From: Pseudomonadota bacterium
GTDB lineage: Bacteria > Pseudomonadota > Gammaproteobacteria > Burkholderiales > Gallionellaceae
Length of the DNA: 64,000 nt
NCBI GenBank assembly: GCA_021848465.1
Contig: JAJZUP010000002.1
Location: forward strand, 1-64,000
Reading direction: 5' to 3'
Both the position numbers and the translations under genes were made by a program. A model generated the notes under the pieces. That model did not search any database and was not told the origin of the DNA. It saw only the letters and a program-made list of their open reading frames with translations. Positions 1,251-35,245 of this stretch are shown here, one piece after another; the first letter of the stretch is position 1, and every line of letters begins with the position of its first letter.

Positions 1251-1346
1251 TTACGCAGCGAGATGCATGAGGAAATGCCCACCCGCATACAGGGTCAGCA
1301 GGGCCAGCCAGAGGCCGGCCATTTTTTTCATCAAGCCCATGTTCAT
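1251..1346 (-). CDS. Possible 31-aa membrane peptide MNMGLMKKMAGLWLALLTLYAGGHFLMHLAA, start overlaps cheA stop (ATGA)
   Basis: cheA stop TGA at 1343-1345 (minus) overlaps ATG at 1344-1346; single hydrophobic segment with preceding KK. Confidence 0.5.
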   Translation of the reverse strand: MNMGLMKKMAGLWLALLTLYAGGHFLMHLAA

Positions 1347-3538: not shown

Positions 3539-3585
3539 GATCTATCCCTTTTCTACAAATTGTTCTTCCCCGTGGGGACATTTTT

Positions 3586-3816
3586 CGGCGGGAGCGCCCC
3601 GAGTTTCTGTAGGAGCGAATTTATTCGCGAATGCGCCCTGCGCTTCCCACCAAACCTTCGCGGTTGAAACCGCTCCCACAAAACCACCGCACCCTGTGGG
3701 AGCGAATTTATTCGCGAATGCGCACTGTGCATCTCACTAGCCTTCGCGGTTAAAACCGCTCCTACAAAATCACCGCACCCGTGGGAGCGGCTTCAGCCGC
3801 GAATGCGCCTTGCGCC
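3586..3816. repeat. REP/BIME-like palindromic repeat cluster
   Basis: Multiple gtgggagcg(g/a)...cgcgaatgcgc and ccttcgcggttgaaaccgctcc units between cheA and the STAS gene. Confidence 0.8.
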
Positions 3817-3818
3817 AT

Positions 3819-4133
3819 TCAGTCGTTCTGGTGCAGCACAACCTGGTCGCCAAAGAAGCTGCCGAGGTCGCACAGGTCGATGATGTCGAGCACGGCCTTG
3901 CTGTGGCCGACATAGCGCAAGGTCTTGCTGCGCAGGATCGCCTCCAGCTTGGCGGCGACCATGAGCTGCACGCCGGCGGCATCAATCTCGGTCACGCGCG
4001 ACAAATCGATTTCGATTTCTTCGTGTTCCGCCACGGCGGGAATGATCTGTTCGCGCAGGTTGCTCACTGCGTAAATCGTCATCTCGCCCTCAATCGGGAA
4101 ATACACAACCCCGGCAGTTCCATTGCGTCCCAT
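3819..4133 (-). CDS. STAS-domain (anti-sigma factor antagonist-like) protein
   Basis: 104 aa; IEIDLSRVTEIDAAGVQLMVAAKLEA typical STAS motif. Confidence 0.85.
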   Translation of the reverse strand: MGRNGTAGVVYFPIEGEMTIYAVSNLREQIIPAVAEHEEIEIDLSRVTEIDAAGVQLMVAAKLEAILRSKTLRYVGHSKAVLDIIDLCDLGSFFGDQVVLHQND

Positions 4134-4171
4134 GTTTTCCTCCTGTGTTATATCTGCGCCCCGGATTCAGA

Positions 4172-4540
4172 TCAGGGCAATACCAGCTTAGATACGGCCG
4201 TCAGCATCTGCGCCGGCTGGAATGGCTTGACCACCCATGCCTTGGCGCCGGCGGCCTGACCTGCCTGCTTCTTGTCCTCACCCGCTTCGGTAGTCAGCAT
4301 GATGACCGGCGTGAATTTGTATTCCGCCTTTTTCTTGGCCTCGGTGACGAAAGTGATGCCATCCATGTTGGGCATGTTCACATCGCTGATGATCAGGTGG
4401 ATCTTCTGACCGTTCAGCTTGCCCAGTGCATCCTTGCCGTCACATGCTTCGATGATGTCGTAGCCCGCGCCCTTGAGTGCGATGCTCACCACTTGGCGCA
4501 GGGATGCCGAGTCGTCTACTACGAGGATAGTTTTTGCCAT
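4172..4540 (-). CDS. cheY: Chemotaxis response regulator CheY
   Basis: 122 aa single REC domain: KTILVVDDSASLRQVV...LIISDVNMPNMDG...VKPF. Confidence 0.9.
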   Translation of the reverse strand: MAKTILVVDDSASLRQVVSIALKGAGYDIIEACDGKDALGKLNGQKIHLIISDVNMPNMDGITFVTEAKKKAEYKFTPVIMLTTEAGEDKKQAGQAAGAKAWVVKPFQPAQMLTAVSKLVLP

Positions 4541-4552
4541 TTCATTTGCCTC

Positions 4553-5818
4553 CTAAAAAAACGTGATTTCAGATTCCTGTTGCTGCTTTTTCTGCTCCGC
4601 CAGGCCGCCGCTATAGGTATCGCCGTTGTGCACCTTGAATTGCTCGGGCATGGTGTAAGTCTGGGAAAGCTCGCCCAGCCAGGAGTGCGCGTCGATCGGC
4701 GATACCGCTCGCCCTGCGGCCAAGTCTTTTTCGCTTTCATCAAGATGTTTTTCGAGCTTGGTCAAGTCGTCACGCACGTGACTCAATATCTGGCTGACGC
4801 GGTCCTGAAATTGCAGCGACACCAGCACGTCGCTGATTTCTTCGCCGATGACCTGCCCCTCCTTGCGCAACACGTCGGCGGACTGTTCCAGCCCGGTGGC
4901 GGCCTGCTCGAATTGATGCAGCACGCTGGCGATCACCTCGGCGGAATTGCTGACCATGACGGCATCCTGGCGGGAGAACTCTTCCGAGGCATGCAGTGTG
5001 GAGGCGATCGCGTTGTTGACGGTCTCGACGGTCGTCGCGATTTTCTTGCCACTTTCCGCCGATAGCGTGGAGAGCTTGCGCACTTCATCGGCCACCACGG
5101 CGAATCCGCGCCCGACCTCGCCGGCGCGCGCCGCTTCAATCGCCGCGTTCAGGGCCAGCAGGTTGGTCTGTCCGGCGATCTTGCTGACATCGGCGGCCAT
5201 GCCTTTCAACGAATCCGTCAGGCTGGCCAGTTCCTGCACCTCATGCAGCAAAGTCTGCTTGCCCGCAAGCGCGGTGCGCATCGATTCGACCACGCCATCC
5301 AGTTCCTGGTGGCAGCGTTTCAGCAAGTCAACCAGTTCCGGTTGTTGCGCGGTTCCGCTGCCATGCGACAAGTTAAGCGCCTTTTCCAGTCCTTGCGACA
5401 AAGTTGCAAAACGGTTCGCAAGGCTGATCGTGGATTCTTCGGTATGCAGGCGCGCCATGTCGATCTGGCGATACCAGACCGGCAACACTTCAGTACACAG
5501 GTCATCCAGCCCGCTGATACACCCGTTTTTCTTGCTGCACAGGCTACCGGACAGCCTGGCCTGCTCCTCCTGCACGGCGGTTTGCACGGCGGCCCTGTGG
5601 CGAGATGAAATCCAGGGAACGGCAAACAATGCCGCCAGTAACGGCACTGCCGCCAGCAACACTGAGGTGATTTCCAGCGCGCCTGAGGCCAGTACCGCCG
5701 CGCTGCCGACTGCGGCAACCAGCCATACCGGCACCGCAATCCATCCGATCAAGGCAACACCGGAAAGGCTTTCCTTCATGCCAGCGTCAGACATTTCTTC
5801 CTGTAGGGTAAAACTCAT
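4553..5818 (-). CDS. Methyl-accepting chemotaxis protein with short N-terminal TM region
   Basis: 421 aa; signalling hairpin [32 protein letters not shown]. Confidence 0.92.
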
Positions 5819-5874
5819 CTCGCGACTCCATCACTTTTCGAGTGGGCCTATGGTCGCAAAGACGCGCAAGAAAA

Positions 5875-5937
5875 ACAGTCAGGAAATCTTGATTTTTTTG
5901 TAGTCAAATTACACGGGGGTAGGGAGATTCCTACACG
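5875..5937 (-). promoter_or_regulatory. Candidate promoter/regulator element upstream of MCP gene: caggaaatcttgatttttttgtagtcaaattacacgggggtagggagattcctac
   Basis: Shared block with 8131-8185 and 20170-20233; GTAGGGA-GA-TTCCTAC near-palindrome. Confidence 0.5.
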
Positions 5938-5997
5938 GAATTATGCGGACTGACATATTCCGGTTGGGCGTTGATACACCGCTGAGGGGCACCAGTT

Positions 5998-6078
5998 GCA
6001 AGTGGGAGCGAACTTGATCGCGAATGCGCACGACAAACACCTAAAACCCTTCGCGGTTAAAACCGCTCCTACAAAACC
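5998..6078. repeat. REP-like repeat
   Basis: gtgggagcgaacttgatcgcgaatgcgcacgac...cttcgcggttaaaaccgctcctacaaaacc. Confidence 0.75.
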
Positions 6079-6092
6079 GCGACCATCTCAAA

Positions 6093-8123
6093 TCAATCTG
6101 CCTCCGCAGGACGGAAGCTCACCTCAATCACGGAGTGGTGTTCGAGTTCGCTGAAGATGCGCATTTCGCCGCCATGCGCACGGATGCGCTCCTGCATCAC
6201 CATCAGGCTTGGGGGAATTTGGCTGAAAAAATCTCCGGGGAGGATGTGCCCGTCATAGCGAATACCCAGCACGCAGTTGCGCCCGTCACTCTTCCAGCTC
6301 ATCAGTACCCGGCTCATCCCAACCACCTTGGCGGCATGATCGAGCACTTCTTCCGCCGCGCGGAATACCAGCAGCGCGACCTGGTCATCCAGCGGCATGC
6401 CGGTTTCGCTCACCTGGAGCTGGCAGGAAATTTCCGGCTGCTTGTTGTATTCCATGACCAGCCACTCCAGCGCAGGCGCAATGCCAAGCTGCAATGCGGT
6501 CGGGCGCAACTCGGAAACCAGCTCGCGTATCACCTTCAATGACTTGTCGATCAGTTCGCCCATCTCCAGGCTGAGTTCGCGCAAAGCGGAATTCTCCCTG
6601 GGAAATTGCATGCGCATCCCGTACAGGTGCATTTTCTGCGCTGCCATCAACTGGGCAAGTTCCTCGTTCATCTCCCAGGCGATGCGCTTGCTCGTCTCCT
6701 CGCGCTTGTTTTCGCGTATCAGCACCGCCTCGCGTAATCTTTGCTGCATCTCCTGCAGTTTCTGTTCCACAATTTTTGTCGCCGTGATGTCCTGCACCGT
6801 GCCGGACGATGCCAGGGGTTTTCCCTCTGCGTCGAAGGTTGTCTCGCAACGCTCGCGCACATGCTTGATGTTTCCTCCCGGCAGCAGCAGGCGATGCTCG
6901 ATGCTGTAGGGCGTACGGGTTTCCAGCGAGTGCCGGTAGGCTTGGTCGACGGCGGCGCGATCCTCCGGATGGATTGCCTCAAGGAAGGCCGCATACGAGG
7001 CGCCGAATTGGTTCCGGTCGATTTCAAAAATCCGGAAGATTTCATCCGACCAGCTCAGCGTACCCGTCACATGATCCAGGTCCCAGCTCCCCATCTGGCC
7101 GATGCGTTGCGCCTCTTCAAGGCGCGCATGGCTTTGCATCAGGGCTGCCTCCACACGTTTTCGCTCGCCGATGTCATGCATGAAGCCATGCCATAACACG
7201 CCGCCATCCGCCCCCGACTGTGGCAACGCGCGCGCTTCCAGCCAGATGCGGCCCTTGGACGGATGCTGCACCCTGAATTCAACATGCAGCGGCGCAAGCC
7301 TGGCGGCGGACTGCGCCATCGCGTCGAAAAACAACTTGAGGTCTTCCGGGTGAATGCACAGGTTGAGTTTCGAAATATCTCCGGCCACATCTTCCGGTTG
7401 CAACCCGAACAAATCCCGGATACCGGCGCTAGCGAACGGCATCGCGTTGCTGCCGTCGGCACCGTGGCGATAGGTAAAGAAAAAGCCCGGTGCGCTGGCC
7501 GCAAATCCGGAAAAGCGCTCTTCCAGCCTGCTGCGTTCCAGCAACTCGCGCTCGTACAAGGCGCGCGCCGTCATGTCCCGCGCAAAACACAGCACATGCG
7601 TGATGCCGCCATCGTCCGCCATCGGAACCAGGCTGATCGCGAACAGGCAATCTTCTGCACCGCCGCTGCAATAAAGCTCAGCCTCGTAATGCACCTGCAT
7701 GCCGGACTGCACCGCTTTGCGCAAATGCTCATCCAGGTGCAGCAACACCAGTTGCATGCGCGGCGTATTGATGCGACGCGCCACCTCATCGAACGGCACC
7801 CCGGCCAAACCCATTCGATCCGGATCGAATGCCTGCTCGGCGGCCGGATTCAGGCTCTCGAAACGAAAGGTCTTGTCGCGCCCGACCTCCACGACGAACA
7901 CCGCATCCGAGGCGTTTTCGAAAATTTCATGATAACGGCGGTTGGCGCGCTCATCCTGAATATCCGTCTCAAGCTGCGCCAGCCTGCGTGACGCATGCCG
8001 GAAATACAGCGTCGTGCTGAACAGCAAGACGATCATAACGATGAGCAGGAAATAAACCATGAGTTGGCCGCCAGGCACACCAATGCATATTAAATGGGCG
8101 CGCACTTTGCCTGACTTGCCCAT
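6093..8123 (-). CDS. Multi-PAS sensor protein with degenerate HisKA_3/HATPase module (predicted pseudo-histidine kinase)
   Basis: 676 aa; PAS/PAC motifs (DITATKIVEQKLQEMQQ); expected H-box reads RIAWEMNEELAQ (His to Asn), N-box and G-boxes degraded. Confidence 0.85.
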   Translation of the reverse strand: MGKSGKVRAHLICIGVPGGQLMVYFLLIVMIVLLFSTTLYFRHASRRLAQLETDIQDERANRRYHEIFENASDAVFVVEVGRDKTFRFESLNPAAEQAFDPDRMGLAGVPFDEVARRINTPRMQLVLLHLDEHLRKAVQSGMQVHYEAELYCSGGAEDCLFAISLVPMADDGGITHVLCFARDMTARALYERELLERSRLEERFSGFAASAPGFFFTYRHGADGSNAMPFASAGIRDLFGLQPEDVAGDISKLNLCIHPEDLKLFFDAMAQSAARLAPLHVEFRVQHPSKGRIWLEARALPQSGADGGVLWHGFMHDIGERKRVEAALMQSHARLEEAQRIGQMGSWDLDHVTGTLSWSDEIFRIFEIDRNQFGASYAAFLEAIHPEDRAAVDQAYRHSLETRTPYSIEHRLLLPGGNIKHVRERCETTFDAEGKPLASSGTVQDITATKIVEQKLQEMQQRLREAVLIRENKREETSKRIAWEMNEELAQLMAAQKMHLYGMRMQFPRENSALRELSLEMGELIDKSLKVIRELVSELRPTALQLGIAPALEWLVMEYNKQPEISCQLQVSETGMPLDDQVALLVFRAAEEVLDHAAKVVGMSRVLMSWKSDGRNCVLGIRYDGHILPGDFFSQIPPSLMVMQERIRAHGGEMRIFSELEHHSVIEVSFRPAEAD

Positions 8124-8130
8124 GCGACGC

Positions 8131-8185
8131 TATCAGGAAATCTTGTTTTTTTTGTAGGGAAAACTCACCGGGGTAGGAAAAGTCT
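8131..8185 (-). promoter_or_regulatory. Candidate promoter/regulator element upstream of pseudo-kinase: tatcaggaaatcttgttttttttgtagggaaaactcaccggggtaggaaa
   Basis: Near-identical block to 5875-5937. Confidence 0.5.
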
Positions 8186-8189
8186 GACC

Positions 8190-8655
8190 CCAAGTGGGAG
8201 CGAGTTTACTTAGGAATGCTCGCTGCGCTCACTACAGCCCTTCGCGGTTGAAACCGCTCCTACGCAAACCAGCCACCCCCTGTGGGAGCGGCTTTGATGA
8301 AACTACTAGCCAATCCACTGATGAAGCAACTGGCCATCTCACTAAGCCGCAGAAAACGCGGCAAGTGATTGGTCATAAGCACGATACGACTGTGCAAGTG
8401 GCTGGTTACAGCCGCGAATGCGCATTGTGCATCCCAAACCCTTCGCGGTTGAAACCGCTCCCACGAAAACCTGCGCGCCCTGTGGGAGCGGCTTTAGCCG
8501 CGAATGCGCACTGTGCATCCCGAACCTTCGCGGTTGAAACCGCTCCCACGCAAACCAGCTTCCCTGTTGGAGCGGCTTCAGCCGCGAATGCGCATTGTGC
8601 ATCCCAAACCCTTCGCGGTTGGAGCCGCTCCTACGCAATCCAGCCGCTCCTACAA
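8190..8655. repeat. REP/BIME cluster, including an interrupted unit (8296-8409)
   Basis: At least four tandem REP-pair units; one interrupted by gatgaaactactagcc...gtggctggttac. Confidence 0.8.
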
Positions 8656-8684
8656 AAAACGCCACATTACTGGCGGCTTGTCTC

Positions 8685-9317
8685 TCACTCAATCAGGTTG
8701 TAGTCGGCCGCATAGCGGATCAGCTCCGCGTTGCTCTGGAAATTCATTTTCTGCATCAGCCTGGCCTTGTGGGTGCTGACGGTCTTGTTGCTGATGAACA
8801 ATTCTTCGGCGATTTCGTTGATGCCCAACCCCTTGGCAAACAGCTTCAGGATGTGCATCTCCCGCTCTGACAGGCGTTCATGGGGTGCCGCTTCATTCTG
8901 GCTCGGCTTTTCGAACATCATCAGTTCGGCAATCGAGGGGTCGATATAGCGCCCGCCAGCCGACACCTTGCGAACCGCATCCATCAGCACATCCTGCATG
9001 CTGCCCTTGGTGACAAAGCCGGAAGCGCCGGCTTGCAGCACGCGCTTGGCGATCTGCAACTCGTTATGCATGCTGAGCACAAGGATGGGCAACTCCGGGT
9101 TCTGCTCGCTTATCTGCCCGATCAGGCCGACCCCGCTGACCCCCGGCATGGTCAGGTCGATCAGGATCAGGTCGTATTTATCCTTGCGCAGCTTCTCCAT
9201 TGCCTCTGCGCCATTGACCGCCTCGCCCGCCACAACGATATCGCCCATCAGCTCAAACAGCTGCTTCAGGCCATTACGCACGATCACATGGTCGTCTGCA
9301 ATCAAAACTCTAATCAT
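8685..9317 (-). CDS. NarL/FixJ-family response regulator (REC + LuxR HTH)
   Basis: 210 aa; DLTMPGVSG phosphoacceptor; LSEREMHILKLFAKGLGINEIAEELFISNKTVSTHKARLMQKM. Confidence 0.93.
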   Translation of the reverse strand: MIRVLIADDHVIVRNGLKQLFELMGDIVVAGEAVNGAEAMEKLRKDKYDLILIDLTMPGVSGVGLIGQISEQNPELPILVLSMHNELQIAKRVLQAGASGFVTKGSMQDVLMDAVRKVSAGGRYIDPSIAELMMFEKPSQNEAAPHERLSEREMHILKLFAKGLGINEIAEELFISNKTVSTHKARLMQKMNFQSNAELIRYAADYNLIE

Positions 9318-12300
9318 GATTTCACCTTTCCATTGTTCGCCGGAATGCGCACTTCGACTTCAGTGCCTTTCCCGCGTTTGCTCGTAATTCCGACATGCCC
9401 GCCCAGCATCAGCGCACGTTCCTGTATCCCGACAAGCCCGTACGACCCGGTTTTCCGGGCCTGGGCATCGAACCCCTTGCCGTTATCCTTCACCTTGAGC
9501 ACATACTCGCTGCCCCACATCCCAAAGCTGATATTGACGCGCGTCGCCTGCGCGTGGCGCGACACGTTGGTCAGCGACTCCTGCACAATGCGGAACAAGG
9601 CAATGGCCTGCTTTTCGTCCAGACTGATTTCGTCCTCCGCCAGATCCAGCTTGCACAGGATGCCGGTATTCGCTCCGAAGCGCCCGGCCAGCCACTCCAG
9701 CGCGGACTGGATACCCATGTCCAGCGCGGCTGGGCGCAGCGACGAGGCCACGTTGCGCGCCACGGCCAGCGCCTGGTCGGTCAGTCCCTTGGTATCTTTC
9801 AGGTGCGTCTTGAGTTCTGGAAGTCCGGGGGAAAACTTATGATCCAGTACTGACACACTCAATTGCAGTCCGGTCAATATCTGGCCCAGTTCATCATGCA
9901 CTTCGCGGGCAATATGTTTGCGCTCTTCTTCACGTGCGGCTTCACGACTCGCGCTCAGCCCGCGCAGCAACTCGCGCGACTCCTGCAGGTCCTGCTCAGT
10001 TTGCTTGAGAACCGTAATGTCACGCGAAATTCCGATCAGGCGGCTGACCCGCTCACCGTGGTAAATCGGTGTCATGGTCGAGTAGTAATAGCGCTTGCCG
10101 AGCGGCACATCCAGCGCAATCTCCTCTGTAAGCGTTTCCCCGGAAGCAGCGCAACGCCGGTATTTATCGATCACCGCCGCCGCGACTTCGGGAGGCACCG
10201 TCTCCTCGACATATTTCCCGATCAGTTGCTCGCGCGGAATGCCGGTGGAGGCAGCCAGCGCCGGATTGATCTCGATGTTGCGGAAGCGCCCGTCCGGCGT
10301 CACCTCCAGCAGGTACATGCCCTCGACCGCATTGTCGAAGATTTCGCGGTAACGCTGCTCGCTTTCCTGCAGGGCGCTTTCAGCCTGCTTGCGTTCGGAA
10401 ATATCCCGCACAGTCGTCAGGTGCAGCGTTTCGCCCTCATAAGTGAATGCGGTCGCGCCCACCTCAACGGGGAATATCTCACCATTCTTGCGCCGGTGGC
10501 TCGATTCGATGGTTCTATGAGCATCACCGCCTGCCACCGTCTGTTTCATCACTTCCTGCATGATTTCGCGCGTGAGATTGTGGTCAATGTCCAATACGGT
10601 CATCGCCAACAGTTCCTCGCGGCTGTATCCCAGCTCCCGCACGGCAGCTTCGTTGACATAGCGGAAGCGCAAGTCTTCGTCGATGAGGTAGGCGGCATCG
10701 AAAGAGTTATCCATCGCGCGGTTGAGCAAATGCAGCTCACGCTCGGCGCGCTTGCGCTCGGTGATGTCGCGTACCATGGCGAGATTGAAAGCTCTCCCGC
10801 CATAATTCATGTGGGAGATATTGATCTCCACCGGAATGATGCAGCCATCCTTGTGTCGGTGCTCGGCTTCGATGGTAACCGCCCCAGCCTCGCTTATCGC
10901 GCGCCAGCTTTCCGCCATCACCTCGGGCGTCCAGCCCGGCGCGATGTCCATGACGGTCATGCCGAGCAGTTCTTCCCGGCTATAGCCGAGCATGCGGCTG
11001 GCTTCTTCGTTGACATAGAAAAAACCACCGTATTCATCGACGAAATACGCGGCTTCGTGCGCATGATCGATAGCGGCCCCCAGCATGGCGAGTTGCAGCT
11101 CGGCCTGTTTGCGCTCGGTAATATCCATGAGTGAAACCAGCACCCTGGACCACGGTTTCCCGCTATCCGGCGCGATCGAGAAATGCACCGCGACATGTCG
11201 CGGCTCGCCCGTCAGGGTCTGCACCACAGCATCAAGCTTCATCTCTGTTTTGCCACGCCACAGGCCAATCAGTTCCTCGCGAAAAGCCCGGAATGAGTCC
11301 GGCGTGAAGGTTTGCTTCAAGCCCGCGAACAATTCCTCCTTGCTGTGTGCCTGGTGCAATGCTACAGCGGCCTGATTAACATCGACGACACGCGCCAGCT
11401 CGGCGCAATGCCCGACAGCGTCGGGATGTGCGTCGAACCAGGCTTCAATATCCTCAATGCCGGATTTCTGCAACTCATCAAAATAAACCCGTACCGCCGA
11501 GAAATCCTCTTCCCAGATGGACACCGGCGAGTTCTCGAACAACTGGCGGTAACGCTGTTCGCGCTCCCGGATCGCGGCATCGACAAGCTTCTGTTGGGTG
11601 ATATCGCGGCCGATGGCCAGCGCCCCGATGACATTTCCCGCTTCGTCGCGCTCAGCAACGAAGCGGATATGATGGTAGCGAATGGCATCACCAACACCCG
11701 GAATGACCAGCTCCATTTCTCCCGGCCGCCCTGTCTCTATGGTCCGCTGCAACATGGCCTGATAATCGAAATACATATCTCCCGGTGCGATTTCCATTGG
11801 AGTCATGTCGATCCGCTCCGCCAGTGTTTTGCCGAGGATCTTCAGCAGGCTGGAATTCATGTAGATAATTCGACACTGTTTGTCGTAGCGGGCAATGTTG
11901 TCCGGCAAGTTTTCCGCCAGCGTGCGGAATTCGCGTTCGCGTGCAGCCAGCTCCGCCGTGCGTTCTGCCACGCGGCGCTCCAGCTCCTCGTTATGTTCCG
12001 CCAGTTTTTTTTGTGCCGCACTCAATTTCAGATGGGTGTCCACCCGCGCCATGATTTCGTCGATCTGCAACGGCTTGGTGACATAGTCGACCGCACCGGC
12101 GCGGAAACCTTCCACCTTTTGCTCGGGCATGGCCAGCGCTGTCATGAAAATCACCGGAATGTCGCGTGTGCTGTCCTGAATTTTCAACCTGCGGCAAGTT
12201 TCGAAGCCGTCAATGCCGGGCATCATCACATCGAGCAGGATCAGGTCCGGTTGCAGCAATTGCGCGCGCCGCATACCTTCCTCGCCGTCCTGCGCGATGG

Positions 12301-12403
12301 ATACGCGATAACCGCGATCTTCGAACAGGCTTACCACCACGGCCAGGTTGCTCGGGGTGTCGTCCACGATCAGGATGGTGGAAAGTGCATTCACTGGCCT
12401 CAT
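9314..12403 (-). CDS. REC-multi-PAS sensor histidine kinase (HisKA_3 type)
   Basis: 1029 aa; N-terminal REC (ILIVDDTPSN...DVMMPGIDG), several PAS/PAC, AREEERKHIAREVHDELGQ; overlaps both neighbouring genes by 4 nt. Confidence 0.92.
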   Translation of the reverse strand: MRPVNALSTILIVDDTPSNLAVVVSLFEDRGYRVSIAQDGEEGMRRAQLLQPDLILLDVMMPGIDGFETCRRLKIQDSTRDIPVIFMTALAMPEQKVEGFRAGAVDYVTKPLQIDEIMARVDTHLKLSAAQKKLAEHNEELERRVAERTAELAAREREFRTLAENLPDNIARYDKQCRIIYMNSSLLKILGKTLAERIDMTPMEIAPGDMYFDYQAMLQRTIETGRPGEMELVIPGVGDAIRYHHIRFVAERDEAGNVIGALAIGRDITQQKLVDAAIREREQRYRQLFENSPVSIWEEDFSAVRVYFDELQKSGIEDIEAWFDAHPDAVGHCAELARVVDVNQAAVALHQAHSKEELFAGLKQTFTPDSFRAFREELIGLWRGKTEMKLDAVVQTLTGEPRHVAVHFSIAPDSGKPWSRVLVSLMDITERKQAELQLAMLGAAIDHAHEAAYFVDEYGGFFYVNEEASRMLGYSREELLGMTVMDIAPGWTPEVMAESWRAISEAGAVTIEAEHRHKDGCIIPVEINISHMNYGGRAFNLAMVRDITERKRAERELHLLNRAMDNSFDAAYLIDEDLRFRYVNEAAVRELGYSREELLAMTVLDIDHNLTREIMQEVMKQTVAGGDAHRTIESSHRRKNGEIFPVEVGATAFTYEGETLHLTTVRDISERKQAESALQESEQRYREIFDNAVEGMYLLEVTPDGRFRNIEINPALAASTGIPREQLIGKYVEETVPPEVAAAVIDKYRRCAASGETLTEEIALDVPLGKRYYYSTMTPIYHGERVSRLIGISRDITVLKQTEQDLQESRELLRGLSASREAAREEERKHIAREVHDELGQILTGLQLSVSVLDHKFSPGLPELKTHLKDTKGLTDQALAVARNVASSLRPAALDMGIQSALEWLAGRFGANTGILCKLDLAEDEISLDEKQAIALFRIVQESLTNVSRHAQATRVNISFGMWGSEYVLKVKDNGKGFDAQARKTGSYGLVGIQERALMLGGHVGITSKRGKGTEVEVRIPANNGKVKS

Positions 12404-15400
12404 GGGAGGAACCCTTCAACAAAATTGAGAATAGCCTGGGACTGGAACTCGCTGGCAAGGCGCTTCAGGTGTTCCGCGAACGGTTGGTAGCGCGCATCGA
12501 GTGCAGCAATATGCCCGGCCTGCTGCACAATGTCGCGCATGTTCCCGAGCAGCGCCAAACGGTGCAGCTCCCGAATTTCGGCCAACGGCGGCGCGGTCAT
12601 TTGAGCCGGGGCTGCGACAGCCCCTTCCGCTACGCCCTGCGGAATATCGGCGACGGAAACGGGCAATAAGTCCGCCTCGATATTCGCCGCAGGCAGTTCC
12701 AGTTCAAAACGGAAGGTGCTGCCGTCGCCGGGGCGGCTTTCAACTGCAATGTCGCCTCCCATCAAGCGCACCAATCGCCGGCTGATCGTCAAACCCAGGC
12801 CGGTGCCGCCGCTCTTTCCCCTGGCCTCGCCCACCTGCTCGAACGACTGGAAAATCTTCTCGCGGTCAGCCGCGGCGATTCCAACCCCGGTGTCGGACAC
12901 GCTGAACGCCAGCCGGGTTGGCGACTTGCGCTCGACTGCAAAAACCACTTTGCCTTGCTCGGTAAACTTGACTGCATTGGACAACAGGTTCAGCAGCACC
13001 TGGCGCAGCCGGCGCTCGTCACCACGCACGCCATCCGGCAAATCCTGTGCAAATTCGCAGACAAGATCGAGATTCTTTTGCCGGGCCTTGACGCCGATGA
13101 TCCCGGCAACACTGTTCAGGAGGCGGAGCAATGGTAAATCGCCGATATACAATTCCAGCCTGCCGGACTCGATGCGCGCCAGGTCGAGAATGTCTTCAAT
13201 CAGCGCCAGCAGGTGCTCGCCGCTCTGGCGGATCACTTCCATGCTGGCAAATTGCCGGCTATCGAGCTTGCCATCGCGTTCCAGCATCTGGGCATAACCG
13301 AGAATGCCGTTCAACGGCGTGCGCAACTCATGACTCATATGGGCGATGAATTCGCTGCGCATATCCGCCAGGCGCTGCGCCTCGACCAGCGCCGCCTCGC
13401 GCGCCTGCTCGTATTGCTTGCGCGCGGAGATGTCGCGGATCACTCCCACCAGCATCTGTTTGCCGTCCGAGGCGACAAACGGGGTCTTCTTGGTCTGGAT
13501 GTGGTGCGTCACGCCGTCTGACGAAGTGATTGTCTCCTCGTTCAGGTTCACTTCGCCGGAACCGAACACGAGTTCGTCCTTCGCCCAGAATTCGTCGGCC
13601 TCGTTCTTCGGAAAAATCTCGTAGTCCGACTTGCCGAGCAGCGTTCCGCGCGGATGGCCAATGAAGGAATAAAACGCGTTGTTCAGCAGCATCCAGCGAT
13701 GTAGCCTGTCTTTGACGAAGATCGGGTCGGGTACCGCGTCGATCACGCTGTCGAGGAAGTTGCGCGAATCCTCGAGTTGCGCCTCCATGCGCTTGCGCTG
13801 GGAAATATCGCGCGACAGCACCAGGAAGGTTCCGCTGGCCTTCTGCGAAACGGAAAGTTCGAACCAGTTCGTTTCCTGCCGATCGAGTGCGATGGTCTTG
13901 CCGAACGACACCCCTGTCTGACCGGCCTCGCGCAAGGCCTCCAGCACCGTGGCCGCCGCCGTGGGAGCGAGTATCTCGCTCACGGTGCGGCCCAGCAACA
14001 CATCCTTCTGCGCTGCCAGCAATTCCGGCGTATGCGTCCAGACATTCAGGTAGCGGCCGTCACTATCCATCTCGAACAGGATGTCTGGAATCGCATTGAT
14101 GACACCTTCGGTGAACTCCAGCGCCTCCTTCAGTTTCAGCTCGACTTCCTTGCGCTCGGTGGTATTCAGCACGAAGATCGTCATGCCGATCACTTCGCCG
14201 TGATCGCCATAGATCGGCGCACCGAAATTGTCGTGGTATTCGCGCACCGGTTTGCCATCTTCGATGCGCTCTTCCGTAGATTCCAGGTAGCCGTGGTTAC
14301 CCGCCAGCACATGATCCGCGCCTTGCCTGAAGAGTTGACGGTGCGCCTCAGTATCGATCGCATCGAGCACGCTCATGCCCGGCTCGATTTCCGCATTCCA
14401 AAGCCGTTTGGCCGCTTTCCTGAAGCGATTGTTGAAAGCCAGCAGGCGATAGTCGCGGTCGATCGCATAGATTGAAACGCTGTCGGACGGGCTCTCGATG
14501 ATGGTTTGCAGCAGGTTGTAGTTGTAACGGTAGCGCGCTTCGCTTTCCTTCAGCGCATCTTCCATGCGCTTGCGCTCGGTAATGTCGTGCACATAGCCGT
14601 ACCAGACCACCCCGCCTTCTGGATGCGGGTGCGGATTGGTATTCCCTTCCATCCAGCGCTCACCCTTGAGCGGATGAATAATGCGGTATTCGCAATGCCA
14701 CGGAGTCATCGTGCGCGCCGATTCTGCGATGCTGTCCATCACCCGCTGCGCATCGTCCGGATGATTTAGCCGCAACAGCGGGGTTGCATCCTCAACAACC
14801 TCTTCCGGTCGAACCCCGAACTGTTCGTAGATGTTCGGTGAAACATAGGGCATGCACACTGTGCCGTCGGGCTTCTGGTAAAAGCTGCCCACCATGCCGG
14901 GCGAGGATTCCGCGAGCGCGCGCAACTCGCGTTCGCGCTCGCCGAGTGCCTCTTCCAACAGCTTGCGTTCCGTGATGTCGCGCGACAACGCGAGAAAGGT
15001 TGCGTCACCCGGCTCATTCCCTGATTTCCTGGACAATGTGTGGGCAAACCAGCGCTGACCGCCCGGCACATCAATCAGGATGTCCTTGCCTTGCGCATAT
15101 CCCTTCTCGTCAGCCTCTCGGATAGCCTCCATAGCTGCAGCGGCATTCTCCGGGGAAAGCACCTCATGAACGGTCTTGCCCAGAAGCGACTCCCTCTGTG
15201 CCGCCAACAAATCGGGATTTTGTGTCCATACGTTCAGGTAGCGACCCTCGCGACTCATCTCGAGCAGGACATCCGGAATGGCATTGATGACACCCTCGCT
15301 GAATTCCAGCGCCTCCTTCAACCGCTGCTCTGCCAGCACGCGCTCGGTTATATCCTGCATCATGCCTACAGCACGCAGCAGGACGCCTTCCGGACTGCAT

Positions 15401-17517
15401 ACGATTTCGCAGCGCTCATGTACATACTTGACCCGACCGTCCGGCATCAGCAGGCGGTGCGTACTTTCATAGGGGCGTCCCGTTTCGACAGAATCGAGAT
15501 AAGCTTGCGCAATCGCGTCTCGATCCTTGGGATGGGTGGCATTCATGCACCCCTCGTAGGATGCGCCATCCTTCATCGGATCGATCTCGTAAATGCGGAA
15601 CAGCTCGTCAGACCAGACATGCACGTCGTTGACGATGTCGTATTCCCAACTGCCGACCAGGGCGATGCGTTGCGCTTCAGCCATCAACTGGCGGCTCTCT
15701 CGCAGCGCGTTTTCCATTTCCTTGCGATCGCTGATGTCCTGCACTGTTCCGATGGAACGCAGCGGTTTTCCGACAGCGTCATAGATCGTTTCGCAGCGCT
15801 CGTGAACGAACTTGATCCGGCCTCCGGGCAGCAGCAGGCGATGTTCGAGTTCAAAGGGCCGGTGCTGCGCCAGCGATGTCTTGTAGGCGGTATCGAGCAA
15901 CTGGCGGTCATCCGGATGCACGGTCTCCATGAACGCTTCATAGGAGGCGCCGAACTCGCTACGCTTGATCTCGAAAATACGGTAGATTTCGTCCGACCAG
16001 GTAAGGACGTTATCGACCAGATTGTTTTCCCAACTGCCGACATGGGCGATGCGTTGCGCTTCGTTCAACGACTCGCGGCTCTGTTGCAATTCCTCGGTGC
16101 GTTCCTGCACGCGCTGCTCCAGCCCGATATTCAATTGGCGGATTTCCTCGCTGGAGCGGCGCAGACGCAACACGAAATACGCCGTCAGCATCAGCAATGC
16201 CAGAGTCGCCCCGAGCACGGTCCACAACTGCTTCTGACGCGCCTTCTGGCGTTCGCTGGACAAGGTCAGCGCGTCAATCTGTCGTTGTTTGCTATCACGC
16301 TGGAAGCGCTCGGACAAGTCATGGATGCGCTTGCCGGCCTTTTCACTCTCCAGTTTATCGTTAAGCCGCGCCGCTTCAGCGGAATAACGATAGGCCAAGC
16401 GGTATTGACCTTCCGCCGCAGCCAGATCCGCCAGGCGCCGCGCGCTGCCGGCCTGATAGACCGTAAAACCGATCTTTTGCGCAAACTCGTTGGCGCGTTC
16501 GGCATCCTTGCGCGCCGCCCCCATGTGTCCCATCGTTTGGAGCAGGTAACTGCGCTTGGTCAGCGACCACCACAGGCCGATCGGGTTGTTGTGCTTTTCA
16601 TACAGCGCGACATCCTCATCCAGCAAGACCTGGGCCGTACGCAACTGGTTGGCATTCATGTAACGGTCTGCAAGAGTAAAGACCGCGTGCGCCACATACA
16701 AGGGTGCCCCCGCCTGGCGGAACAGTGCCAATGACTGTTCGGTGATGCGGATGGCCTCGACATGATTTTTTTTGCTGACGCTGAATTCAGCCATGCCCAA
16801 AACGGCGGCGGCTTCCAACAGTCTGGAATGTGCCTGGCGCGCCGCTTCCTGCATGCTCCGGTAATGCTCGTACGACAGCTCAAACAGCCCGCTCTGTGAA
16901 TAGGCGACCGCCATGCCCTGCTCGGCATAAGCCCGGGCCAGCGGACTATCGTTGCGTTTCGCTATGTCCAGGGACTGCATCGCGATTGTGGCCGCTTCGT
17001 CCTGATGACCGAAGCGCAAATACATCATGGCGACATGGAACATAACCTCGGCGCGCAAATCCTCGCGCTGGACGCTTTCCAGCAGGTTCATCGCGTCTTC
17101 CACCGCCGCCCGCATGTCATCAAGACGCCCCTGGTTGATGGCGCTGGAAGACACCACCAGGTCGGCCTCGATCTGGCCGACCGGGTCGTTATCCTGCTTG
17201 GCCAGCAGGTGGGCCGTGGCGCTATGCTGCGCAGATTCTTCGATCAAGCCCAGGTAAAGCTCGATGCGCGCACGTAAATTGAACATCCGCGCCTGGTCGT
17301 TGCCGGTGACCTCAACCGGGGCTTCGACTTGCAGGCGCCGCACTTCGCGGTACGCGGCCGGCGCATCGTTTTCGGCGAGCTCGCGTACCTCTGCAACCTG
17401 CGCGCGCCATGTCTCCAGTCTGCCCGCTTGCGCCGCCGACGGACACCATAAAACACAAGCCAGCATGAGGCCCGGCAGGATGCCACGGTGGAAGCGGGAG
17501 TACGGTATTGGCATCAT
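12400..17517 (-). CDS. Large sensor histidine kinase: signal peptide, periplasmic TPR-like region, TM, multiple PAS, HisKA-HATPase
   Basis: 1705 aa; VLWCPSAAQA signal, helical TPR-like repeats, TM LWTVLGATLALLMLTAYFVLRL, HMSHELRTPLNGILGYAQML, GTGLGLTISRRLVRLMGG. Confidence 0.92.
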   Translation of the reverse strand: MMPIPYSRFHRGILPGLMLACVLWCPSAAQAGRLETWRAQVAEVRELAENDAPAAYREVRRLQVEAPVEVTGNDQARMFNLRARIELYLGLIEESAQHSATAHLLAKQDNDPVGQIEADLVVSSSAINQGRLDDMRAAVEDAMNLLESVQREDLRAEVMFHVAMMYLRFGHQDEAATIAMQSLDIAKRNDSPLARAYAEQGMAVAYSQSGLFELSYEHYRSMQEAARQAHSRLLEAAAVLGMAEFSVSKKNHVEAIRITEQSLALFRQAGAPLYVAHAVFTLADRYMNANQLRTAQVLLDEDVALYEKHNNPIGLWWSLTKRSYLLQTMGHMGAARKDAERANEFAQKIGFTVYQAGSARRLADLAAAEGQYRLAYRYSAEAARLNDKLESEKAGKRIHDLSERFQRDSKQRQIDALTLSSERQKARQKQLWTVLGATLALLMLTAYFVLRLRRSSEEIRQLNIGLEQRVQERTEELQQSRESLNEAQRIAHVGSWENNLVDNVLTWSDEIYRIFEIKRSEFGASYEAFMETVHPDDRQLLDTAYKTSLAQHRPFELEHRLLLPGGRIKFVHERCETIYDAVGKPLRSIGTVQDISDRKEMENALRESRQLMAEAQRIALVGSWEYDIVNDVHVWSDELFRIYEIDPMKDGASYEGCMNATHPKDRDAIAQAYLDSVETGRPYESTHRLLMPDGRVKYVHERCEIVCSPEGVLLRAVGMMQDITERVLAEQRLKEALEFSEGVINAIPDVLLEMSREGRYLNVWTQNPDLLAAQRESLLGKTVHEVLSPENAAAAMEAIREADEKGYAQGKDILIDVPGGQRWFAHTLSRKSGNEPGDATFLALSRDITERKLLEEALGERERELRALAESSPGMVGSFYQKPDGTVCMPYVSPNIYEQFGVRPEEVVEDATPLLRLNHPDDAQRVMDSIAESARTMTPWHCEYRIIHPLKGERWMEGNTNPHPHPEGGVVWYGYVHDITERKRMEDALKESEARYRYNYNLLQTIIESPSDSVSIYAIDRDYRLLAFNNRFRKAAKRLWNAEIEPGMSVLDAIDTEAHRQLFRQGADHVLAGNHGYLESTEERIEDGKPVREYHDNFGAPIYGDHGEVIGMTIFVLNTTERKEVELKLKEALEFTEGVINAIPDILFEMDSDGRYLNVWTHTPELLAAQKDVLLGRTVSEILAPTAAATVLEALREAGQTGVSFGKTIALDRQETNWFELSVSQKASGTFLVLSRDISQRKRMEAQLEDSRNFLDSVIDAVPDPIFVKDRLHRWMLLNNAFYSFIGHPRGTLLGKSDYEIFPKNEADEFWAKDELVFGSGEVNLNEETITSSDGVTHHIQTKKTPFVASDGKQMLVGVIRDISARKQYEQAREAALVEAQRLADMRSEFIAHMSHELRTPLNGILGYAQMLERDGKLDSRQFASMEVIRQSGEHLLALIEDILDLARIESGRLELYIGDLPLLRLLNSVAGIIGVKARQKNLDLVCEFAQDLPDGVRGDERRLRQVLLNLLSNAVKFTEQGKVVFAVERKSPTRLAFSVSDTGVGIAAADREKIFQSFEQVGEARGKSGGTGLGLTISRRLVRLMGGDIAVESRPGDGSTFRFELELPAANIEADLLPVSVADIPQGVAEGAVAAPAQMTAPPLAEIRELHRLALLGNMRDIVQQAGHIAALDARYQPFAEHLKRLASEFQSQAILNFVEGFLP

Positions 17518-17520
17518 CGG

Positions 17521-20085
17521 TCAGTATCTGGCGGCCAATACGAGCGCCAACTGACGGTCGTTGCTGATTGAATTTTGCGGGCGGGTCTCGACACCGTAGT
17601 AGGAGGTGCGCACGGTGCCGAGCAGGTTATTGCCTTCCAGCGTCAGCGTGAGCTGCTGGCTGATGCGGTAGCTTACCGAGGCGTCCATCCAGCCGTACGC
17701 CTTGGTGTAGATCGGCAGCGCGCCCACCCCCGCATAATTACCCACCCCGCTCAGGAAAGTGTCGCGCCAGTTGTAGGCCAGCCGCGCGGAAAACTCGCCC
17801 AGCTCATACATGCCGACGACGTTGTAGCTGTGCGGCGACAGGTTTTGCAACGGCACGTTCAGCCCGAGCACGCTGTTCGGCGTGTCGCTGTCCACGTAGG
17901 TGTAATTGGCCTGCAAGCCCAGCCCCTTCATCCAGCCTGGCAGGAAATCGTAGAACTGCTGATAGCCTGCTTCCAGCCCGCGGATGTTGGCCGGATTGCT
18001 GTTCTGCGGGCGGCTCACCTGGTAGGTCACGCCGCTGTAGGTCTCGGCGTTGCTGACCGTAGTGACGAAGCCGTCCACGCGCTTGAAAAAACCGGTCAAG
18101 TACACCGAGGTGGTGTCGTTGAAATAGCGCTCAATGGCCAGATCATAGTTATCGGCGCGGATCGGGCGCAGGTTCGGGTTGCCGGCGGTGCCGTTCAACT
18201 GCACGGTATTCAACGTCAGCGAGGGCGACATCTGGTTGAAGTCCTGGCGCGTGATGGTCTTGGATGCAGCGCCACGCAGGTAAAGCCCGTCCTGCAGCCG
18301 GTAGCGCAGGTTGGCGCTGGGCAGGTAATCGACGTAATTGCTGCCCTGATTGATCGGCGTATACGGGCCAGCCGACGGGCCGCTATAACCGTCCATGCTT
18401 CCCTGGGTATTCACTATGCGCACCCCGGCATTGCCGTCCAGCGGCATTTCGTGCGTGGCGAGCTTGCCCATGAAGTACAACGCTTGCGTGTCTTCGGTCA
18501 TATCCCAGGTGCCGAGCGGATTGCTGGCCGGGATGGCGCTGGTGATGCCCAGCGTGGCGCGCGCGCCAGCCAAGTTGCGCGCAGCCTCCGGGTCGCCGAC
18601 CAGGTAACCGCCATAGGGACTGGTGATCGTCAGCGCTGACGCATTGGTCAGCACGCCGGAGGGGAAGCTGGTGACCTGCCCCGGCGCATCGCTGGCATGG
18701 CGACGCGCCACGCGCGCCCCGGCCAGCAGCGATTCCCAGGCACTGCCGGACAAGCGGTATTCGCCGTCCAGCCGCGCGGCGGTCTGGTCGGAATCGAACG
18801 GGCGCGCGGCATACCACATGCCGGTAGAACTGAAGCCGGACAAGGCCCCCAGGCTGCTGCCCATGCTGTACGAGGGTTGGCCGGGGCCGATGTCCTGGGT
18901 CACGGAGGCGGCGGTGCCGGTCAGCGTGATCGTCGAGTAGAACAGGTTGTTGTGGCTGCGGGTATAGCTGAGGTCGCTCTTCAGGGTGAGCGCGTCGTCG
19001 GTCCAGGTCCCGCCCGCCGCAAGCTGGGCAACCTGGTCGAGCGTATCGCGCGCGGCGCCCACCGTGGTGAGCGACATATTGCTCCAGGTGATGTGCTGCA
19101 AGTCATTCGTGCCGGGAAACAGCACCGGGCTGCCGGCTACGAATGTGGTGGGGGCCGATCCATATATCTGGTAGGTGTCCTGCCTGGTCTGGAATTCGCT
19201 ATAACTGCCTTCGGCGTACAGTTTGAGCGTGTCTTGCGGCGCCCACTCCACCATCAGGTTGACCGACTTGCGCTCGCGCGTGCCGACGTTGGTGCTTTCA
19301 TTGATGCCGTTCGGCACCACTACGGTTTGACCGGAAACAATGTTGGTACGCGAAACCGGGTTGCCTACGCCTTTCCAGTCTTCGCGGAAGGCACGTTTCT
19401 GGTAGGCCGCGTCGAGCAGCACGCCGATCTCGCCATGATCTTGACTCTGCCAGCGGTTGCTCGCCAGCATCGAATATTGCTGGGCATTTTGCTTGACGAG
19501 GTCGCCATACACCGTGCGCACCGTTCCCGCCAACGCCTTGCCGGGAAAGTCAAACGGACGCCGTGTGCGCATGTCAATCGTACCGCCCACGCCGCCCTCG
19601 ATGTGGTCGGCTGCGGAGGTTTTATAGACGTCAATGCCGGCGACCATTTCGGAGGGAATATCGGCAAAATCAAGCACTCGGCCATTGCCGGCGGTAAATA
19701 CTTCGCGCCCGTTCAGCAGGGTTTCCATCTGCGTCAAACCGCGGATCGCGACGCCGGAGCCTTCGCCGCGGTCGCGCAGGATTTGCACGCCGGTCACACG
19801 TGCCAGGGCATCGGTAACATTCGTGTCGGGGAGCTTGCCGATGTCGTCCGCCACCACCGAATCCACTACTTCCCTTTTGCGCTGCTTGATCGCCTGTGCC
19901 GAAACCAGGCTGGCACGCGTGCTGGTCACGACGACCACCGGAAGTGTCACCCCTGCATTATGGGCCTGCTGCTGTGCGGACACTGACGTATCCGCTTCCT
20001 CGGCTTGCGCTCCGGTCATGCCAATGGCATATGCAGCAGCCGCAATATGAACCGCCACCCCCATCTTCCCTGTTCGAGACACCAT
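17521..20085 (-). CDS. TonB-dependent outer-membrane receptor
   Basis: 854 aa; plug domain DDIGKLPDTNVTDALARVTGVQILRDRGEGSGVAIRGL, C-terminal barrel ending LALVLAARY; 3 nt from downstream kinase start. Confidence 0.92.
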   Translation of the reverse strand: MVSRTGKMGVAVHIAAAAYAIGMTGAQAEEADTSVSAQQQAHNAGVTLPVVVVTSTRASLVSAQAIKQRKREVVDSVVADDIGKLPDTNVTDALARVTGVQILRDRGEGSGVAIRGLTQMETLLNGREVFTAGNGRVLDFADIPSEMVAGIDVYKTSAADHIEGGVGGTIDMRTRRPFDFPGKALAGTVRTVYGDLVKQNAQQYSMLASNRWQSQDHGEIGVLLDAAYQKRAFREDWKGVGNPVSRTNIVSGQTVVVPNGINESTNVGTRERKSVNLMVEWAPQDTLKLYAEGSYSEFQTRQDTYQIYGSAPTTFVAGSPVLFPGTNDLQHITWSNMSLTTVGAARDTLDQVAQLAAGGTWTDDALTLKSDLSYTRSHNNLFYSTITLTGTAASVTQDIGPGQPSYSMGSSLGALSGFSSTGMWYAARPFDSDQTAARLDGEYRLSGSAWESLLAGARVARRHASDAPGQVTSFPSGVLTNASALTITSPYGGYLVGDPEAARNLAGARATLGITSAIPASNPLGTWDMTEDTQALYFMGKLATHEMPLDGNAGVRIVNTQGSMDGYSGPSAGPYTPINQGSNYVDYLPSANLRYRLQDGLYLRGAASKTITRQDFNQMSPSLTLNTVQLNGTAGNPNLRPIRADNYDLAIERYFNDTTSVYLTGFFKRVDGFVTTVSNAETYSGVTYQVSRPQNSNPANIRGLEAGYQQFYDFLPGWMKGLGLQANYTYVDSDTPNSVLGLNVPLQNLSPHSYNVVGMYELGEFSARLAYNWRDTFLSGVGNYAGVGALPIYTKAYGWMDASVSYRISQQLTLTLEGNNLLGTVRTSYYGVETRPQNSISNDRQLALVLAARY

Positions 20086-20169
20086 GTCATCCCCTTTATG
20101 CCGTTTGTTGGAATAACCAGCCGAAACAGCTTAATAATACTGCCAGTATCACAAAGTTCAGTGAATTAC

Positions 20170-20233
20170 ACTATCAGGAATAGTAAGGGGGGTAGGGAAA
20201 TCCCTACAAATGGATGATAGGGATTTCCCTACA
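20170..20233 (-). promoter_or_regulatory. Two palindromic sites GTAGGGAAATCCCTAC (20192-20207) and TAGGGATTTCCCTA(C) (20218-20232) upstream of TonB receptor gene
   Basis: Direct reading; first is a perfect 7-2-7 inverted repeat; centres 25 bp apart. Confidence 0.65.
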
Positions 20234-35039: not shown

Positions 35040-35245
35040 CCCACATGTAGGAGCGGCCTATGCATTCCAAACCCCATCGCGGCCAAGGCCGCTCCTACGA
35101 AACCCGCCACACCCCGTGGGAGCGGCTTTGATGAAACTACTAGCCAATCCACTAAGCACGATAAAGCCGTGCAAGTGGCTGGTTATAGCCGCGAATGCAC
35201 ACCATGCCACCCACTACCCTTCGCAGTTGAAGCCGCGCCTACAGC
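35040..35245. repeat. REP-like cluster with interrupted unit (35130-35186)
   Basis: gtgggagcggcttt interrupted by gatgaaactactagccaatccactaagcacgataaagccgtgcaagtggctggttat before agccgcgaatgc. Confidence 0.75.

Follow-up and report, generated by a model that had tools for sequence, protein, structure and literature searches.

NarL and NarP of Escherichia coli recognize heptamers in a 7-2-7 geometry, the NarL heptamer being TACYYMT. In Bordetella, BvgA binds the inverted heptad TAAGAAATTTCCTA, which has no spacer, as head-to-head dimers, and further weak dimers are bound every 22 bp down to −35, with the strongest site lying most distal at Pfha (PMC7250471). Control of chemotaxis genes by a two-component response regulator (RR) is represented by DegU at the fla/che operon of Bacillus subtilis (PMC2245950).

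Here we analyse a locus in a Gallionellaceae MAG of 2.43 Mb, which groups with Gallionella/Sideroxydans. The locus lies in a 64,000-nucleotide stretch of DNA, hereafter referred to as the window. An earlier note on this DNA had described GTAGGGA-type elements in front of three sensory units and ascribed them to a NarL-type RR encoded among them. We consider it probable that the GTAGGGA element is the distal and strongest of three sites in an activator promoter, through which a NarL/BvgA-type RR would activate a sensory regulon and its own operon.

The element is formally 7-2-7 and the RR belongs to the same protein family as NarL, as the earlier note held, but the BvgA array is a closer model than classical NarL. 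The heptamer is not TACYYMT, and no nitrate genes were seen among the targets examined. The likeness to the fha and ptx promoters of BvgA lies in the NarL-family RR, in the inverted heptad (TAGGGAAATCCCTA here versus TAAGAAATTTCCTA at Pfha), TAGGGAAATCCCTA being a distal inverted heptad of the TARGRAA type, and in a promoter-proximal site centred at about −42 and abutting the −35 region, a predicted position, deduced from the spacing to the −10 hexamer. In contrast to BvgA, the predicted targets are chemosensory and c-di-GMP genes, the proximal site has a conserved sequence of its own (ATCA-N8-TGAT), the spacing in the window varies from 19 to 25 bp, and the kinase is of the REC-PAS-HisKA_3-HATPase type, lacking the periplasmic Venus-flytrap domains of BvgS. 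The RR missed the NCBIfam equivalog cut-offs of NarL (123 against 250 bits), EvgA (115 against 251 bits) and UvrY (172 against 280 bits). Because it falls below these cut-offs and the kinase is not of the BvgS type, we regard the system as one that would work like BvgA, not as BvgA itself. EvgA, an E. coli RR of the NarL family, uses the half-site GTARGAA, similar to that found here, with half-sites facing the other way; two solved structures, 5f64 and 8zwn, match the window RR. Unlike DegU, which belongs to another lineage, this RR is encoded inside a chemosensory cluster and its predicted sites form a phased three-site array.

Gene organization of the locus

The genes and promoter elements of the locus lie on the minus strand of the window. 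The first gene of the RR operon encodes a TonB-dependent receptor (TBDR; TIGR01782; 17521–20085). It is followed by the genes for a TPR-PAS HisKA histidine kinase (12400–17517; Pfam), a REC-PAS(x4)-HisKA_3-HATPase histidine kinase (9314–12403; Pfam), which overlaps each neighbour by 4 bp and has intact catalytic boxes, and the NarL/BvgA-type RR (8685–9317). The RR consists of a receiver with the phosphorylatable Asp54 and the conserved Lys104 (Pfam Response_reg, 2.6e-29) and a C-terminal GerE helix-turn-helix (Pfam GerE, 7.9e-21) with the recognition helix SNKTVSTHKARLMQKM. Kinase 9314–12403 is its probable cognate kinase. Since the TBDR-HK-HK-RR genes overlap or abut, they probably constitute one operon, and the site in front of the TBDR gene would then also be the RR promoter. 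The receptor unit is probably the RR's own operon, so the palindromes there would mean autoregulation.

The second unit is a gene for a PAS-HisKA_3 protein (6093–8060; annotated as 6093–8123), and the third is MCP-cheY-STAS-cheA (1343–5818), comprising MCP (4553–5818), cheY (4172–4540), STAS (3819–4133) and cheA (1343–3538). The PAS-HisKA_3 protein had been read as a pseudo-kinase, and its catalytic boxes bear this out: the phospho-acceptor histidine is replaced by Asn486, the N and G boxes are degenerate, and Pfam gave no HATPase_c match in 6093–8123. Its closest relatives (in genomes G029 and G167) have kept the histidine but have poor ATP-binding boxes. The family is otherwise kinase-like, and this protein appears to be a member in decay that has stayed under the predicted promoter of the regulon. 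Intergenic clusters of REP-like repeats, GT(G/A)GGAGCG...CGCTCC(C/T)AC, are found at 1058–1240, 3609–3790, 6002–6072, 8194–8653 and 35047–35124, some of them between the RR and PAS-kinase genes.

Palindromes in front of the three units

Direct reading of the window sequence showed that all the motifs claimed for it are present at the positions given. Relative to the palindrome, GTAGGGAAATCCCTAC at 20192–20207 has no mismatch, whereas ATAGGGATTTCCCTAC at 20217–20232 and GTAGGGAGATTCCTAC at 5919–5934 have one each. The MCP-che promoter also carries the partial site TGTAGTCAAATTACA (5899–5913). In front of the PAS-kinase gene, both claimed sites, GTAGGGAAAACTCAC at 8154 and GTAGGAAAAGTCTGAC at 8173–8188, were found, but they are half-sites with at least 4 mismatches to the palindrome. 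The (a/g)tcaggaa element precedes all three units (at 5878, 8132 and 20173).

A scan of the window with 3 mismatches allowed gave 3 sites against 0.74 expected, and 7 of 100 shuffled sequences reached 3; the window-only count of near matches is thus a weak signal, mildly above chance. Genome-wide, GTAGGGANNTCCCTAC with up to 1 mismatch occurs at exactly 3 sites in 2.43 Mb, all of them within this 14-kb stretch. The reversed control pattern had no occurrence in the whole 2.43-Mb genome at the same threshold, and an order-3 Markov simulated genome of 2.4 Mb with the same composition contained no site. The genome-wide counts and the simulated genome together rule out a chance origin. These sites, together with the profile search described below, support a shared, predicted operator before all three units. 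Across the family, a plain consensus scan at 2 mismatches was uninformative because the control pattern is commoner there; we used a three-site profile instead.

A probable three-site promoter with a fixed −10 spacing

Aligned promoters of relatives share the order palindrome (site 1), half-site ending in CCTAC (site 2), ATCA-N8-TGAT (site 3) and −10 hexamer. In most relatives, the CCTAC half-site follows the palindrome by 21–24 bp and ATCA-N8-TGAT lies a further 22–23 bp on. The right half of ATCA-N8-TGAT is the "tcaggaa" of the earlier note on the opposite strand. In an alignment of 21 promoters from other genomes, site 3 and the −10 hexamer have invariant letters. A hexamer with A at position 2 and T at position 6 (CATTAT, CAAGAT, etc.) starts exactly 22 nt past site 3 in 23/23 of the first-aligned promoters. 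Of 50 promoters that had not entered the model, 42 show the same spacing, a count partly favoured by the profile itself, with other spacings at 0–6 of 50; the two window promoters belong to both sets. Among the 11 profile matches that end before the −10 hexamer, 7 have exactly 22 nt and all 11 are within 1 nt of it. At the expected position of a −35 element, the aligned promoters have no consensus hexamer.

Taking the hexamer as the −10 element would place the centres of the sites in relatives at about −42, −64 and −86. The 7-2-7 palindrome is a real inverted repeat, as claimed, and in the aligned promoters it is the strongest of three sites rather than the whole operator. Likewise, the gene-proximal tcaggaa element is better described as the promoter-proximal site, which is centred near −42 and keeps a constant distance of 22 nt to the −10 hexamer. 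Sites 2 and 3 resemble site 1 loosely, so the predicted binding of the RR there rests on the analogy with BvgA.

The window promoters can be read in the same way. The TBDR-operon promoter has its distal palindrome, GTAGGGAAATCCCTAT on the gene strand, at 20217–20232 and a second full palindrome, GTAGGGATTTCCCTAC, 25 bp downstream at 20192–20207; by sequence reading, its site 3 (20173–20188) has a conserved right half, TTCCTGAT, and a poor left half, and by the spacing rule the predicted −10 hexamer is GATACT (20145–20150). In the PAS-kinase promoter, the distal site GTCAGACTTTTCCTAC (8173–8188), with a good right half, is followed by the second half-site TTTTCCCTAC (8154–8163; profile alignment), site 3 AACAAGATTTCCTGAT (8132–8147; alignment and −10 spacing) and the predicted −10 hexamer CAAAGT (8104–8109). 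The MCP-che promoter comprises the distal palindrome GTAGGAATCTCCCTAC (5919–5934), the second half-site TTTGACTAC (5900–5908; sequence and profile alignment), site 3 ATCAAGATTTCCTGAC (5878–5893; alignment and −10 spacing) and the predicted −10 hexamer GACCAT (5850–5855). The 22-nt rule holds in all three. Successive sites are 19 and 22 bp apart in both the MCP and the PAS-kinase promoter, and 25 and 20 bp apart in the TBDR promoter; phasing in the window is less regular than the 22-bp scheme. The MCP and PAS-kinase promoters are closely alike.

The first possible start of the PAS-kinase gene (8123) is probably 63 bases too early, and the predicted −10 hexamer falls inside the 8060–8123 frame. 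Because the predicted transcription start lies inside the annotated frame, Met22 (8060) is the likelier start codon.

Further predicted targets in the genome

The profile with which we searched the genome was built from 21 promoters, all of them from other genomes; its calibration was shortened, and the E-values are approximate. The profile recovered the window MCP-che promoter (match 5865–5937, E 4.2e-8 genome-wide) and the PAS-kinase promoter (match 8126–8191, E 8.3e-6 genome-wide). The TBDR promoter matched over the palindrome only (13.7 bits, E 0.09 genome-wide). The top match lies before a gene for an MCP that combines a CxxCH sensor region with PAS and HAMP domains (C8:101382, E 5e-10). 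Others precede genes for an sCache_2 protein followed by a 4HB MCP fragment (C4:1451, E 4e-7), a diguanylate cyclase of Cache-HAMP-GGDEF type (C7:897922, E 9e-6), a 130-residue unknown protein (C7:116592, E 1e-5) and a FIST protein (C4:149309, E 2e-4). The promoters of two RR paralogs were matched as well (C4:247837 and C4:217265). Thus, the predicted regulon extends beyond the window.

A 1372-bp stretch is present twice in this genome, in inverted orientation and with 99.6% identity (L193:8158-9529 and L194:9332-10703; C2 at ~326 kb and C7 at ~594 kb). By eye it appears to hold flhDC, with a weak version of the module in front (E 0.03). It represents either a recent duplication or an assembly artefact.

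Association of the module with an RR subfamily

From 158 Gallionellaceae genomes, we retrieved and mapped the neighbourhoods of RR homologs and of all 55 close homologs of cheA. With the PAS hybrid kinase as query, one relative only was found at 1e-100. The recurrent gene order is HK - RR - [motif] - second kinase - [motif] - MCP-cheY-STAS-cheA. Looked for upstream of the RR genes in relatives, the motif proved to lie mostly downstream of the RR, before the next gene.

Loci whose linked RR has a ..STHK.. recognition helix carry the module, whereas che loci without the RR (e.g. in genus g8) or with a ..STYR.. helix had no convincing module. The latter include the clusters L142, L143, L145, L146, L150 and L161, which presumably use another operator. 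Loci of Collimonas carry the module too, next to RRs that share the module-linked helix.

Over the family, the profile gave 107 matches in 50 genomes. With RR presence called at a 1e-60 cut-off, matches were found in 37 of the 50 genomes having the RR subfamily and in 13 of the 108 others. When only genomes outside the model were considered, the figures were 22/35 with the RR and 13/108 without it (p 1.2e-8), and 20 of the 66 matches in such genomes lay within 400 bp of an RR gene. The mismatched genomes comprise 13 without an RR at 1e-60 yet with matches and 13 with an RR yet without them. The proposed link of the motif to a NarL-family RR is thus borne out by co-occurrence in the 158 genomes, by the adjacency of module and RR, and by the lack of a convincing module where the RR was absent or had the other helix.

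The family target genes sampled encode MCP, MCP-GGDEF, CheR, CheW, FIST, PAS-GGDEF-EAL and kinase proteins; a minority of the sampled matches had no clear sensory gene downstream. The G167 operon FIST - TPR-PAS kinase - REC-PAS kinase - RR carries the module and is homologous to the window operon, with FIST replacing TBDR. Two regulon genes of G167, whose RR is 72% identical to that of the window, lie at L225:1855-3500 and L225:3560-5700. In the product of one, GGDEF comes after an MCP signalling domain (Pfam), and the other is similar, seemingly with an additional EAL by eye; they are possible chemoreceptor-cyclase hybrids.

The probable regulator and its proposed mode of action

The acting regulator is most likely RR 8685–9317 or a paralog whose recognition helix is almost identical. 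The claim that this RR itself co-regulates the receptor, pseudo-kinase and chemosensory genes gains from the link to the RR subfamily, and the specific RR is likely, but three RRs of the genome share similar helices. In the RR tree, the window RR groups with RRs of G095, G088, G008 and G167. Two own-genome paralogs belong to the same clade, and with helices so similar (SKKTVSTHKANLMHKM and SSRTVSTYKTRLMQKM) cross-binding is likely. One of them (C4:217363, 61% identical, or C4:247967, 56%) might be the main binder, with RR 8685–9317 secondary or cross-talking, and each adjoins promoter modules of its own. We regard this as the less probable assignment: the closest orthologs of the window RR, in G095 and G008, immediately precede MCP-che units that carry the module, and the palindromes are borne by the window RR's own operon.

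For action through RR 8685–9317, we infer binding, its dependence on phosphorylation and activation over repression as follows. Upon a signal, the REC-PAS-HisKA_3 kinase (9314–12403) would phosphorylate the RR (8685–9317), whose dimers would first occupy the distal palindrome TAGGGAA/TTCCCTA. Cooperative binding to the CCTAC half-site ~22 bp downstream and to the weak ATCA-N8-TGAT at about −42 would follow. The bound dimers would then lie two DNA turns apart on one face, beside a promoter with a −10 element and no good −35 element. RNA polymerase would thereby be recruited to the RR operon (autoregulation), the (pseudo-)kinase gene, MCP-cheY-STAS-cheA and sensory genes elsewhere.

Alternatively, ATCA-N8-TGAT and the element downstream of it could be the core element of a particular sigma factor, leaving the palindrome alone as the regulator site. 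The CCGATAT part does resemble a sigma-28 −10 element, and site 3, which reads GCCGATAT in some promoters, is better conserved than site 2. We find this improbable: in the 42 of 50 promoters noted above, the A/T pair of a sigma-70-like −10 element lies at its fixed spacing downstream of site 3, a finding that disfavours the sigma-28 reading; site 3 itself forms an inverted repeat of 16 bp at a distance of 22 bp from site 2; and no sigma-28 −35 element was seen. A repressor or silencer role of the RR at these sites is comparably hard to credit. The sign of regulation is not given by sequence alone, but the sites extend upstream from about −42, the promoters are without a −35 element, and BvgA activates through this layout (PMC7250471). 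That the elements are dispersed repeat copies or recently duplicated promoters devoid of regulatory meaning, as the nearby REP-like repeats and the similarity of the MCP and PAS-kinase promoters could suggest, is already largely refuted and very improbable, since modules occupy syntenic positions across distinct genera and Collimonas while the inter-site sequence varies, and they track the RR, whereas the REP-like repeats differ in sequence.

Discussion

We found no earlier description of this arrangement in the open-access literature that was searched, also by the motif letters. A motif recognized by eye has become a precise promoter model, with three sites and a fixed −10 spacing, for little-studied, hard-to-grow betaproteobacteria, and a sensory-gene regulon has been predicted by sequence alone. 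Since the element recurs among iron-oxidising relatives, beside one type of regulator and before genes for chemotaxis and other sensing, one regulator probably sets the amount of sensing machinery. Going further, and only tentatively, we propose that a dedicated two-component system may set the whole sensory repertoire (chemosensory array, MCPs, c-di-GMP enzymes and FIST sensors), and that a target kinase paralog has decayed to a pseudo-kinase, which would give the RR feedback via a catalytically dead partner. The analogy with BvgA suggests that phased-array activation, known from the virulence genes of one pathogen, may be a more general mode, which in free-living bacteria would control chemosensory capacity.
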